From positions 1 through 34,655 of the forward strand of contig PNJK01000037.1 in NCBI GenBank assembly GCA_013821825.1: DNA of 34,655 nucleotides, written 5' to 3'. Each line of letters opens with the position of its first letter. Position 1 is the stretch's first letter. Positions 18,967-22,951 of the stretch are shown here, one piece after another. This DNA comes from Rhodobacter sp. GTDB lineage: Bacteria > Pseudomonadota > Alphaproteobacteria > Rhodobacterales > Rhodobacteraceae. Position numbers and translations under genes: made by a program. The notes beneath the pieces were generated by a model. That model was given only the letters and a program-made list of their open reading frames with translations, made no database searches and was not told where the DNA came from.

Positions 18967-19003
18967 TTCTTCGCGCCCAGGCAACGCAGGCATTGCCGCA
19001 GGC

Positions 19004-19588
19004 CTATGCATCGGGCGCATGGCTTCTTAGCCGGTTGACCACAGCCATGTAGCCGCCCTCGTCGAGATAGGCCTGTTCGTCGGCGGACGAGATGCGCCCC
19101 AGCGCCGCATTGCGGGTCGGAAAGCGGCCGAAGCGGCGGATCACTTCCTGATGCGCGCGGGCGTGCAGGCCCAGGTCGGGCTTGGACGAAAGCCTTTCGG
19201 TCAGATACTCCACGGCAAGGATCTGGTCCTGCGGATCTTCCGAGTGTTCGAAGGGCATGTAGAAAAACTGCCGTTCCGGTTCCGGGGCGTTCATGTCCCA
19301 TCCCTCGGCCACGGCCTTGCGCGCGGCGGCGCGGGCGCGGGCGTCGGTGGCAAAGGCCAGGGGAGTATCGCGGTGGATGTTGCGCGGGAACTGGTCAGTC
19401 ACGATCAGATAGGCCAGCGTGCCGATCGTGCCATCGACCCAATGGTCAAGCCCGCCGTCATGCGCCGCCTGCCAGAGATCGCCAAACCGGTCACGGCAGG
19501 TGGCGTCGATTTCCGCGCCTCCGGCATACCAGCCATTGGGGCCGATCTCGCCGATCCAGAATTCCAGAACTTCCACCGGATCGGACAT
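19004..19588 (-). CDS. DUF924 family protein
   Basis: A 194-aa soluble protein starting MSDPVEVLEFWIGEIGPNGW after a GGGAGG ribosome site. The family pattern is intact: EVLEFWxG..GP..WY, RFGDLWQAAHDGGLDHW, GTLAYLIVTDQFPRNIHRDT, RQFFYMPFEHSEDPQDQ and the C-terminal FGRFPTRNAALGR. DUF924 proteins are all-helical with a TPR-like arrangement and have no established biochemical role. It is the last gene before the insertion with MFS-tail repeats; in the inferred ancestral order the MFS gene at 21719-22951 would have been its immediate upstream neighbour on the same strand. Confidence 0.92.
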   Translation of the reverse strand: MSDPVEVLEFWIGEIGPNGWYAGGAEIDATCRDRFGDLWQAAHDGGLDHWVDGTIGTLAYLIVTDQFPRNIHRDTPLAFATDARARAAARKAVAEGWDMNAPEPERQFFYMPFEHSEDPQDQILAVEYLTERLSSKPDLGLHARAHQEVIRRFGRFPTRNAALGRISSADEQAYLDEGGYMAVVNRLRSHAPDA

Positions 19589-19633
19589 GGTGCCTCCCTC
19601 TTTGACCTCAGCGTTGCAGGGAAACGCGCCCGC

Positions 19634-19727
19634 CGCAACCGGTGATCTCAGGTCCGGGCCTCGTGCCGCTTTTCCAGAACCGCGTCTGCCGCATGCGAGG
19701 ATGTGCCAAGCTTGACGCCTCAGAAAA
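19634..19727 (-). pseudogene. Degenerate duplicate of the 3' end of the MFS gene (left repeat)
   Basis: Plus-strand 19634-19690 matches 21705-21761 with about 3 mismatches in 57 bases (offset 2071). Translated on the minus strand it gives ASGVF-stop-GVKLGTSSHAADAVLEKRHEART, aligning with the C-terminus of the intact MFS protein (VSGAFRGVSPGASS, DAVLEKGHEART). An in-frame TGA replaces a sense codon and similarity fades beyond ~19780. It is therefore a truncated, decayed copy of the MFS tail. It marks the left border of the 2-kb block carrying the cupin, ABM and LuxR genes. Confidence 0.85.
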
Positions 19728-19830
19728 CGCCCGAGGCCGCTACGCCAACATGCGTATTGGGTCCCCGGCGCACCTGGCCTTATGTGTTCCGCATGTTCCA
19801 CAGACCGTGGACAAGAGATGGAGGAAGGAA

Positions 19831-20571
19831 ATGGCGACTCATATGCATGGACTGGACGCAGCACTGGCGAAAGCCGAGGTGAAGGCTTTCGGCAAGGCAG
19901 ACGAAGTCCGGGAATTCCCCAAGGGCAGAGTTGAACTCATCAAGATCGGTGGCGCAATGATCGGACGGGCGGTGTTTGAACCCGGCTGGCGCTGGGCGAC
20001 CTCGGTGCAGCCGCTCGTGAACACGAAAAGCTGCGAAGCGCCGCATTTCCAGTACCACGTCTCCGGCATCTTGCGGGTGAAGATGGATGACGGAAGCGAA
20101 TTCGATTGCAAGCCCGGCGATGTGTCGGTCTTGCCAAGCGGGCATGACGCTTGGACCGTCGGAAACGAGCCGGCTGTCGTCGTCGATTTCCAGGGCATGG
20201 TCGACTACGCTTCAGGCCACACACATGTCGAAGGCGCGTCGTTGCTTGATGGGAAGTCTTACCGCGGCCAGTTCATCGAAAAGGGCAAGAGCAGCGGCGA
20301 TCTCGACACCTTGACCTTCGCCGATGGCCGCTTCCGTTCCAGTGCCTGCGACCAGTATGGTTATGGCGACGCACCCTACAGTGCGATTGCTGACGGCGAA
20401 AATATTCGCTTCAACGCCGAGACGGAGAGCCCCCGCTATGGCAAGCTCGTCTGGAAGGGTGTGGTCGCAGGAGACCGGCTAAAGGGGGAAATCCTGATGC
20501 TGCAGGACGGCAAGGCACCCATCGAGAATTTCATCAATGCTGCTCTCGTACCGTCAGCTGCGAAGGTGTGA
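19831..20571 (+). CDS. Cupin protein with C-terminal beta-barrel (lipocalin-like) domain
   Basis: A 246-aa protein starting MATHMHGLDAALAKAEVKAF after a GAGGAAGG site. Residues ~40-115 are a cupin: FEPGWRWATSVQPL, the metal-ligand-like HFQYHVSGILRV, DCKPGDVSVLPSGHDAW. Residues ~135-240 form a second beta-rich unit (DTLTFADGRFRSSACDQYGY, RFNAETESPRYGKLVWKG, LKGEILMLQDGKAPIENF) that I recognise as recurring in other proteins, often fused to cupins, with no assigned function. It is followed after 3 bp by an ABM-fold gene, so the two form an operon. It lies inside the inserted block, with codon use slightly less GC-biased than its neighbours. Substrate unknown. Confidence 0.85.
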   Translation: MATHMHGLDAALAKAEVKAFGKADEVREFPKGRVELIKIGGAMIGRAVFEPGWRWATSVQPLVNTKSCEAPHFQYHVSGILRVKMDDGSEFDCKPGDVSVLPSGHDAWTVGNEPAVVVDFQGMVDYASGHTHVEGASLLDGKSYRGQFIEKGKSSGDLDTLTFADGRFRSSACDQYGYGDAPYSAIADGENIRFNAETESPRYGKLVWKGVVAGDRLKGEILMLQDGKAPIENFINAALVPSAAKV

Positions 20572-20574
20572 GAC

Positions 20575-20865
20575 ATGACAGCCTTCAACGTCGTTCGCTT
20601 TAAGGTCCGGCCCGGAAAGGACCACGCGTTTCTGAGCGCTCATGGCCCCGGCAAGGTCAATTGGCCGAGCTTGCAGCAGGGTACGATCATCAGAATCGGC
20701 GCGGGTGACTATTGCCTAATCGGAGAATGGCTTGACGAACAAGCGCTGAAGGCTGCGCTGCCGAGCATGCTGGCGACGCTGGACACGTTCCGCGATGTGT
20801 TGTTGCCAACGACCTCGGGCGTCACGGAGGCCATGTCAGGGCAAGCAGTCCTGGCAATTGCCTAA
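20575..20865 (+). CDS. ABM-fold (antibiotic biosynthesis monooxygenase-like) protein
   Basis: A 96-aa dimeric alpha/beta-barrel candidate: MTAFNVVRFKVRPGKDHAFL opens with the strand-turn typical of ABM/EthD-like proteins. IIRIGAGDYCLIGEWLDEQA and LPSMLATLDTFRDVLLP complete the ferredoxin-like unit. It starts 3 bp after the cupin gene stop, so it is co-transcribed and probably coupled. Such proteins are cofactor-free monooxygenases or small-molecule-binding isomerases; the sequence does not say which. It is inside the MFS-tail-bracketed insertion. Confidence 0.8.
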   Translation: MTAFNVVRFKVRPGKDHAFLSAHGPGKVNWPSLQQGTIIRIGAGDYCLIGEWLDEQALKAALPSMLATLDTFRDVLLPTTSGVTEAMSGQAVLAIA

Positions 20866-20989
20866 AGCGTCCGCACCAATCCAACCTCCGCGTGAGCGTC
20901 CGCTGCTCGCGCGGGGGTTGGTCGGTTTGACAGGCCGCCGACCGGATCGTATTCTTTGCACTATCCGGGGTCGAAGGTGCGCTGCGCCT

Positions 20990-21592
20990 ATGGGTGGGAA
21001 AAAGACGACCAATTCTGGGCTTGACCCGGAACCGATTCGCCATCCGGGTGCTGACCATGCAAGCACCGACGTTAATTTTGCGTCCATACAAAGTCTTGAT
21101 AGCACGGGGGGCTGGCACGTTCTTCGCGTTTCGCGTGAGGGTGTGGTGACGGGCGATGTGGCCGCCCAGAAAGTGCTCCGGCAGTTCTTTTTCGACTGCC
21201 CGGCCTGGGAGGGGAGCCTGCCAGCGCCGTTGGCCAACGCTTTCTTTGAAAGCCGTGATTGGGGATTGAGCAGATCACCCAGCCGGGATTGGCGCACCTT
21301 CAGCAAAGTGCAATCCGGCATGAAGCTGACAGCGAATTACATTCCCGACCCAAGCGGTGGCTACGTGGTATTGAGGTCCGGTCGGGCAGTCGCCGCTGTC
21401 GATGCTTCGGCTCTGCCACTCACCGGACGCGAAAAAGAGATCGTCACGCTAGTAGCGGCGGGAAAGACCAACGCCGAGATCAGCCTGATCCTCGCCATCA
21501 GCGCGCGCACTGTCCAAAAGCATCTTGAGAACATGTTTCGCAAACTTGGCGTTGAATCGCGAATGGCCTTGGCGATGCGAGCTACGGTCTGA
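20990..21592 (+). CDS. LuxR-type (GerE) transcriptional regulator
   Basis: About 200 aa from the ATG at 20990 (MGGKKTTNSGLDPE); the frame is open further upstream and the start is uncertain because the only ribosome-site candidate (GAAGG) is ~13 bases away. The N-terminal ~130 residues (WHVLRVSREGVVTGDVAAQK, MKLTANYIPDPSGGYVVLRS) look like a small sensor region without a recognisable named domain; no phospho-acceptor receiver domain is seen. Residues ~136-182 are a classic LuxR HTH: LTGREKEIVTLVAAGKTNAE, ISLILAISARTVQKHLENMF, RKLGVESRMALA. It probably regulates the cupin-ABM pair just upstream. It is convergent with the intact MFS gene. Confidence 0.85.
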   Translation: MGGKKTTNSGLDPEPIRHPGADHASTDVNFASIQSLDSTGGWHVLRVSREGVVTGDVAAQKVLRQFFFDCPAWEGSLPAPLANAFFESRDWGLSRSPSRDWRTFSKVQSGMKLTANYIPDPSGGYVVLRSGRAVAAVDASALPLTGREKEIVTLVAAGKTNAEISLILAISARTVQKHLENMFRKLGVESRMALAMRATV

Positions 21593-21701
21593 GGCGCCGC
21601 CAAGGCAGCCCCGGGCGCTTGCCAGCCCGGGCCGGTGCCATTTCCTGTCAATCGAATTGCCGGTTCAACCGTGACACTCGCCGCATCACCTGCAACAGGC
21701 G

Positions 21702-21775
21702 CGCCGCGACCGGTGATCTCAGGTCCGGGCCTCGTGCCCCTTTTCCAGAACCGCGTCTACCGCCAGTGACGAGGC
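21702..21775. repeat. Right copy of the MFS 3'-end direct repeat
   Basis: Same sequence as 19631-19700 (direct orientation, offset 2071, ~95% over the best 58 bases). It covers the last ~17 codons of the intact MFS gene plus ~17 bp beyond its stop. Weaker similarity extends ~30 bp further on the downstream side. The two copies bracket the cupin-ABM-LuxR block. Confidence 0.88.
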
Positions 21776-22951
21776 CCCGGGCGATACGCCCCGGAAAGCG
21801 CCCGAAACTTCGGGTGCGGCCCGGCGGGTCATCCGGTATAGCGCGTAGCCGGCCAAGGCGATGTAAAGCCCCCCGATGAAAAGGAAAAATCCACCGGAGC
21901 CCACCGTCTCCATCATCCAGCCGGTGACGAGGGGGCCAAAGATCGCCCCGAACCCGTTCAGAAAGATCAACCCGGCCGAGGCCCCAGCCATCTGCTCGCG
22001 CAGCAGGAAATCATTGGTATGCGCGATGAGCAGTGCATAGACCGGGTTGGTGATACCGCCAAGGACGACAGCCACGACGATCAGCGCGGTGAAGGGCAAT
22101 GGGACAAAGGCCGCGACCAGCATCGCCACGGCGGCAAGCGCCGAGAGCCCCATGATCAACATCCGGCGGTCAAGCCGGTCCGAGGCCCAGCCGATCGGAT
22201 ATTGCAGGACCAGCCCGCCGACATAGAGGCTGCCGACGAAGATCGAGATCTCGCGCACGCTGAGTCCGACCTGCGCGCCCCAGACCGAAGCCATGCCGAA
22301 CATGGCCGAAAAGACCCCCCCGGTCAGCAGCATCCCGGCGCAGCCAAGCGGCGAGATGCGGAACAACCGGGCAAAGGAAATGCGCCGCGTGCTGTCAAAT
22401 GCGGGTGCCGGCGTGGGTGCCAGCAGGATCGGCATGAAGGCCAGCGACACCAGCACCGACGGGATGATGAACAGCGCAAAACCCGAGGCGTCCGGCAGGT
22501 TCAACAGCACCTGACTGGCGATGATACCCAGCATCTGCACGATCATATAGGCCGACAGCGCCTGCCCCCGGGTCTCGTTGCTTGCGGTGTTGTTGATCCA
22601 GCTTTCGGCGGTGATGTAGATGCCGGAAAAGCAGAACCCCGCCATCACCCGCAGCACGGTCCAGACGATCCAGTCGGGATAGACCGGGTAGATCACCAGA
22701 ATGGCCGAAATGAACGAGCCAAGGGCCGCGAAAACCCGGATGTGGCCGACCTTGCGGATCAACCGGGGCGCCACCAGCGATCCGAACAGGAAGCCCAGAA
22801 AGTAGGCCGACATGACATAGGAAAGCTCGTAGGTCGAAAAGCCCTCGATATTGCCGCGGATGCCCAGAAGCGTCCCCTGAACGCCGTTGCCGACCATCAA
22901 CAGCATGACGCCCATCAGCAAGGGCCAGGAGTGCAACATGACTTTCAGCAT
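21719..22951 (-). CDS. MFS transporter, YcaD-like
   Basis: A 410-aa, ~12-helix membrane protein starting MLKVMLHSWPLLMGVMLLMV. The start at 22951 is 10 bp after the stop of the small upstream ORF. MSAYFLGFLFGSLVAPRLIR contains the helix 2-3 loop. The sequence ITAESWINNTASNETRGQAL is typical of the YcaD/MFS_1 subgroup, and GWASDRLDRRMLIMGLSALA is the second-half signature loop. The C-terminal ~30 residues are hydrophilic and are the segment duplicated at 19634. The substrate is unknown. It is the last gene of the AsmA-queA-ORF-MFS run and the site next to which foreign DNA appears to have entered. Confidence 0.92.
   Translation of the reverse strand: MLKVMLHSWPLLMGVMLLMVGNGVQGTLLGIRGNIEGFSTYELSYVMSAYFLGFLFGSLVAPRLIRKVGHIRVFAALGSFISAILVIYPVYPDWIVWTVLRVMAGFCFSGIYITAESWINNTASNETRGQALSAYMIVQMLGIIASQVLLNLPDASGFALFIIPSVLVSLAFMPILLAPTPAPAFDSTRRISFARLFRISPLGCAGMLLTGGVFSAMFGMASVWGAQVGLSVREISIFVGSLYVGGLVLQYPIGWASDRLDRRMLIMGLSALAAVAMLVAAFVPLPFTALIVVAVVLGGITNPVYALLIAHTNDFLLREQMAGASAGLIFLNGFGAIFGPLVTGWMMETVGSGGFFLFIGGLYIALAGYALYRMTRRAAPEVSGAFRGVSPGASSLAVDAVLEKGHEART

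Follow-up and report, generated by a model that had tools for sequence, protein, structure and literature searches.

How did three plus-strand genes come to lie within a run of minus-strand genes, between two copies of the end of a transporter gene? This question was raised by a locus of Rhodobacter sp. (contig PNJK01000037.1), studied here in a window, i.e., the whole stretch of DNA analyzed, of 34,655 nucleotides. The DUF924 gene, the MFS transporter gene and queA are all encoded there on the minus strand, and a block of three plus-strand genes, coding for a cupin-like protein, a small ABM-like protein and a LuxR-type regulator, stands between the first two, as a first-pass annotation had pointed out. 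We describe below a real insertion, which the sequence presents either as an island devoid of integrase or as the scar of a Campbell-type integration.

An empty junction in related genomes

The two genes that border the block were clearly recognized, DUF924 (19004..19588, minus strand) by Pfam PF06041 (191 bits), and the intact MFS gene (21719..22951, minus strand), the tail of which constitutes the live copy of the repeat, by MFS_1 (97 bits) and by 93% identity to G012. In relatives, these genes are neighbors: DUF924 directly adjoined the MFS stop codon, with no block in between, in 27 of the 27 congeners examined, among the 31 other congeners of the genus. The junctions left out were those of G002 and G009, which had no MFS match, of G025, which had a split match, and of G029, in which MFS was split over two contigs and the locus of which (L029), devoid of DUF924, was dropped. 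At the family level, the gap between the two genes ranged from 11 to 303 bp (median 117) in 79 of the 394 genomes, i.e., those in which both matches stood on one contig among the matches listed (G439, with its two matches on different contigs, was left out of the count), while the same measure gave 2133 bp in the window. Congeners and family genomes together amount to 105 distinct genomes (27 plus 79, G001 being common to both), none of which had a second insertion of at least 1 kb at the MFS-DUF924 junction, and no integration hot spot was seen there in the 79 family genomes, among the matches listed. Further outward, the order of neighbors (lpd-DUF924 and MFS-queA) was the same as in relatives. 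As observations on the MFS gene itself, the length of its tail differed across the genus, a short in-gene tandem repeat was seen by eye in the C-terminal tail of G014 (L012), and the gene of G025 (G025:C104:3822-5035) gave two overlapping matches suggestive of a frameshift.

The cupin gene and a full-length LuxR were rare in the genus. The cupin gene was found in one of the 32 genus genomes, namely its own. The LuxR protein had matches in 29 of the 32, full-length in its own genome and partial, within residues 96-202, in the other 28. Within the family, cupin matches occurred in 45 of 394 genomes including this one, the others being partial and at most 43% identical among the matches listed. 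In addition, GC3 was 0.64-0.73 in the genes of the block versus 0.78-0.86 in DUF924, MFS, queA and lpd. In view of the empty junctions, of a cupin gene and a full-length LuxR so rare in the genus and of this low GC3, the block is most simply regarded as an acquisition at an otherwise stable junction. The comparison with relatives by which the first-pass annotation had proposed to judge its insertion model hence turned out in its favor. Solid support for an insertion at the 3′ end of MFS, accompanied by duplication of its tail, comes both from the empty junction and from the absence of the cupin gene and of a full-length LuxR from the 31 congeners.

A mosaic direct repeat

Pairwise alignment, previously suggested as a means to fix the borders of the repeat, confirmed that the repeat is real and showed similarity between the copies from about 19620 to about 19740, i.e., over some 112-121 bp of the MFS 3′ end; the announced spacing of 2071 bp was correct, and the announced length of 60-90 bp was too short. 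The direct repeat (19623-19734 and 21694-21805; 112 nt, 81% identical) surpassed all others of the window in both length and similarity when direct repeats of at least 40 nt were sought with a 12-base seed, the runner-up reaching 65 nt and 71%. A search of its own genome returned two copies, the second at E = 2.6e-24, and no third. The whole repeat can be aligned without indels, and 19638-19667 is the longest exact run common to both copies (30 bp). The live MFS stop codon (21719-21721) has its counterpart at 19648-19650 in the distal copy, and the in-frame stop already noticed in the latter was located as a TGA at 19720-19722, the matching codon of the live gene being CGG.

Similarity was unevenly distributed along the copies. 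The outer part of the distal copy (19640..19693, minus strand), which comprises the MFS stop and last codons, was identical to 21711-21764 at 51 of 54 positions (94%), versus 29 of 47 (62%) for the inner part (19694..19740, minus strand), a diverged MFS tail which contains the TGA; over 19694-19734, 27 of 41 inner positions were identical (Fisher test of outer versus inner, p = 0.0007). Relatives exhibited the reverse of this pattern, with a mean identity to the live copy of 0.52 outside and 0.66 inside in 28 loci (27 congeners, plus G033 from another genus), gaps being counted as differences, which lowers the outer identity among relatives. The outer-over-inner excess of the two copies, about 0.3, was reached by none of these 28 relatives, and the greatest excess among their 378 pairs was 0.18. 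As the copies are near-identical outside while relatives show the opposite trend, the outer parts of both copies seem to go back to a recent common source.

By contrast, the distal inner part seems to stand at about the distance from the live copy expected of another species. Identity to its own live copy was 0.62, versus up to 0.68 among the 28 relatives (L019), a comparison over 47 bp which weakly suggests that the live copy is not its closest relative. Where the inner parts differ (18 sites), the base of the distal copy was found in other relatives with a mean of 0.25, versus 0.16 under decay (p = 0.009, or p = 0.003 with transition bias), in a test which is short and post hoc, and which an old duplicate with ancestral bases would pass too. 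At these same sites, the base was unseen in relatives twice for the live copy and four times for the distal one. Overall, the repeat looks like a crossover mosaic: uniform decay would not predict such a structure, whereas a single crossover within the tail would do so, on the left side. The earlier description of a dead and a live copy can be retained as an outcome, but simple decay does not suit an outer part of 54 bp that is near-identical beside a diverged inner part.

The edges of the block were also compared with host sequences. The left flank carries the ancestral DUF924-MFS spacer, of host type (19589..19639), the score of which against the spacer of the nearest relative (L003) was 36, the highest of 56 loci. 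The right flank is devoid of it, the 51 bp beside the right copy scoring 7-15 against the 56 loci. When 21694-21710 was placed in register with the left spacer, 13 of 17 positions were identical, versus 2 of 14 just outside, and local alignment of 21660-21710 with this spacer gave a score of 9, shuffled sequences having a mean of 7.4 and a 95th percentile of 10. A mosaic with host DNA outside and donor DNA inside on the left, and the reverse on the right, would fit on the left and at most weakly on the right, where the 13 of 17 identities in register stand beside an alignment score within the range of shuffles. The right repeat copy beyond the stop codon (21694..21718) is at most weakly host-spacer-like and is possibly donor DNA.

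Gene content of the block and search for a donor

Among the names given to the three genes by the first-pass annotation, that of LuxR was upheld, as the LuxR/GerE assignment is secure (about 20990..21592, plus strand, start codon uncertain; Pfam GerE, 65.9 bits). The other two names correspond to sub-threshold Pfam matches, i.e., 16.9 bits versus a cut-off of 23.5 for the cupin-like gene (19831..20571, plus strand), made of an N-terminal cupin part and a C-terminal part, and 15.8 versus 23.1 for the small ABM-like gene (20575..20865, plus strand). NCBIfam provided no name for either protein, and no solved structure of the cupin-like protein was found by sequence. No recombinase or transposase was found among the three genes by Pfam, and a search against PHROGs returned only HTH/sigma-type matches, to LuxR. 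Downstream of luxR, 21585-21660 folded no better than shuffles and a terminator scan was negative there; no structured RNA was found at gathering scores.

Of the 389 candidate stretches that came out of a scan of genome contigs for the cupin-like protein, 357 were relatives, and the 80 best were kept (L062-L141). The record titles of these best 80 of 357 loci came from many phyla, and the N-terminal cupin part was 65-87% identical in them. An ABM match was present in two of the 80, and a LuxR match lay at most 2 kb from cupin in 16, versus 3 such matches over the other 73% of the sequence. One locus, in a Hyphomicrobiales MAG (L062, JAEUMJ010000144.1), harbored cupin, ABM and LuxR in the same order and orientation, with 75, 70 and 65% amino acid identity, respectively (76% over residues 1-245 of the cupin-like protein), while a Hyphomicrobiaceae locus (L064) had cupin, ABM (56%) and a more distant LuxR (38%). 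DNA similarity to L062 covered 19818-20864 and 21068-21582, which corresponds to the genes and not to the junction DNA, and no flank common to L062 and the window was found. Neither the left junction DNA 5′ of the cupin gene (19741..19830), in which similarity to L062 starts only at 19818, nor the right junction DNA 3′ of luxR (21593..21693) had a convincing match in the fetched loci. In L062 itself, a fragment of transposase-type HTH (HTH_Tnp_1, 42 bits) was present just downstream of the cluster (2731-2862), and a tRNA-like, sub-threshold Rfam match upstream of it (481-535); the latter was dropped as evidence, as ARAGORN found no tRNA beside the cluster and the Rfam match was below threshold. 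In four other loci (L070, L086, L089, and L091), the C-terminal half of the cupin protein matched separately from the cupin part, preceding it in three and following it in one; judging from these separate matches, the cupin-like gene of the window may be a fusion.

No clear donor of the tail emerged when the inner segment was compared with the 56 empty-junction loci, of which 28 were aligned. MFS homologues were found in 312 plasmid records, all below 60% amino acid identity. Cupin matches on plasmids (18 records) each had at most 52% coverage and less than 60% identity, and there was no DNA-level match to cupin in plasmid records, no cupin match in phage records and no relative of cupin or LuxR in viral contigs. 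In the literature searched, no paper was recognized, among the entries listed, that dealt with this junction or with the cupin-ABM-LuxR cluster, an absence that is not proven.

Mechanism of insertion

Campbell integration leaves an insert between direct repeats, with one intact and one truncated copy of the gene and with the crossover block lying within the repeat. Our favored reading, to which we would nevertheless grant slightly less than an even chance, is that a single crossover of this type brought the foreign cupin-ABM-LuxR block into the MFS-DUF924 junction. The incoming DNA, probably circular, would have contained the block and, adjacent to it, an MFS tail piece of its own, and the crossover between chromosomal and incoming tails would have taken place in or beside 19640-19693. 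On the DUF924 side, host spacer and tail end would have been retained and joined to the diverged inner tail of the incoming DNA; on the MFS side, host gene body and tail end would have been retained and joined to DNA other than the host spacer. The MFS gene would thereby have stayed intact, leaving a dead distal tail. Such a scheme supposes that the tail ends of host and donor were already alike, or were made alike by gene conversion or gap repair. It accounts for the arrangement on the left and is not at odds with the right side. The failure to find a donor, the shuffle-level score of the right-hand edge and the lack of a flank common to L062 and the window speak against it. Homologous (probably RecA-type) recombination is here preferred to integrase-driven recombination only because there is no recombinase among the three genes and no second insertion in 105 genomes, and because the repeat had no match in phage records and a single 26-bp match in plasmid records (E = 0.09). 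The Campbell-type option of the first-pass annotation accounts for the data without an integrase; the insertion that it advocated is borne out by the empty junction, while the simple decay of the distal copy was contradicted and the loss of an integrase gained no positive support, neither from the three genes nor from the 105 genomes.

According to a rather unlikely alternative, the block would be what remains, as in a CIME, of a site-specific element (island, ICE/IME, or satellite) whose insertion into the 3′ end of MFS restored the gene end and whose integrase was later lost, the outer 54 bp being the att core. The near-identical segment does span the stop codon and end shortly after it, the gene being restored and the copies diverging further on, which resembles an att core, and cargo CIMEs of 1.2-13 kb occupy the 3′ ends of protein genes in Streptococcus salivarius, as far as the cited account extends (PMC7563491). 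However, homology runs about 47 bp past this core into the gene, beyond the needs of an att core, and the points just listed in favor of homologous recombination, together with the HTH/sigma-type nature of the PHROGs matches, argue against such an element.

Duplication of the tail at the time of insertion, by a staggered break with fill-in or by a tandem duplication followed by insertion, is in our opinion unlikely. The inner part would then have decayed, while selection on the region upstream of DUF924, or else gene conversion involving the live MFS copy, would have preserved the outer part. The location of the distal outer part, 52-105 bp upstream of the DUF924 start codon, alignment without indels and the four distal inner bases out of 18 unseen in relatives are in line with this scenario; however, the outer part is the least conserved among relatives, which makes constraint unlikely, and an extra step of homogenization is required.

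It is also conceivable, though decidedly improbable, that small gene cassettes devoid of recombinase move between related species by using the MFS tail as a docking site. Recombination between the flanking tail copies would then release a circle with one tail, which would re-enter the chromosome of another species by homology, at the same gene end.

An assembly artefact, in which block and chromosome would have been joined through a shared repeat, is very improbable: the genome is indeed a draft of 234 contigs with a contamination estimate of 4.95%, and the cupin gene is unique in the genus, but there are 3 differences between the copies over the 54 outer sites and 18 over the 47 inner ones, with no exact run above 30 bp, and gene order on both sides (lpd-DUF924 and MFS-queA) matches that of relatives. 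As for transposition, which would entail terminal inverted repeats, a short target duplication and a transposase, it was rejected, since none of the nine inverted repeat pairs in 19000-22500 joins the ends of the block, the three genes code for no transposase and the duplication exceeds 100 bp.

Significance and comparison with known systems

This locus appears to be a fairly ordinary case of horizontal gene transfer, of about 2 kb and three foreign genes, with unusually readable scars. It offers a small and clean example of a gene acquisition whose traces are still legible base by base, and it indicates that, when one copy of a repeat is dead, a mosaic structure should be looked for before decay is invoked. 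As for the cargo, its cupin-like protein has close relatives in many phyla, often with a LuxR regulator nearby.

The locus shares with Campbell integration a repeat-bracketed insert and an intact plus a truncated gene copy, as well as an empty, single-tail site in relatives, but it differs from it in that neither a vector backbone nor a clear donor was found. With the L062 cluster, it shares gene order and orientation, but the surroundings differ and DNA similarity ends at the genes. Integrase-free cargo has also been described in Dehalococcoides, where, in the part of the report considered here, 15 ssrA islands have no integration module (PMC3146451). That system involves a proposed integrase and direct repeats of 20 bp, 28 in number, in contrast to one insertion, at a protein gene and with no integrase, here; what the two have in common is cargo that lacks an integrase of its own and lies next to a duplicated 3′ gene end (PMC3146451). 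CIMEs, finally, are decayed elements which have retained att sites and lost their recombination and conjugation genes; those of S. salivarius, within the scope of the cited account, are arranged in tandem with other elements (PMC7563491). Here, no related ICE or IME was seen, the repeats are candidate att sites only and are partly diverged, and the published CIMEs differ in their tandem arrangement, at least in that account (PMC7563491). The block has direct repeats flanking it at a gene 3′ end and no recombination or conjugation genes among the three genes (cupin-like, ABM-like, and LuxR-type) from which this was read, overlapping antisense ORFs being present as well. On the basis of this analogy, it resembles a CIME-type remnant, although we do not file it as a CIME, the att function of its repeats being putative and no parent element having been seen. 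The likeness to the S. salivarius elements lies in a cargo within the range of about 1-13 kb, devoid of recombination genes and lying between repeats at a protein gene's 3′ end, as these elements are presented in the cited account (PMC7563491).
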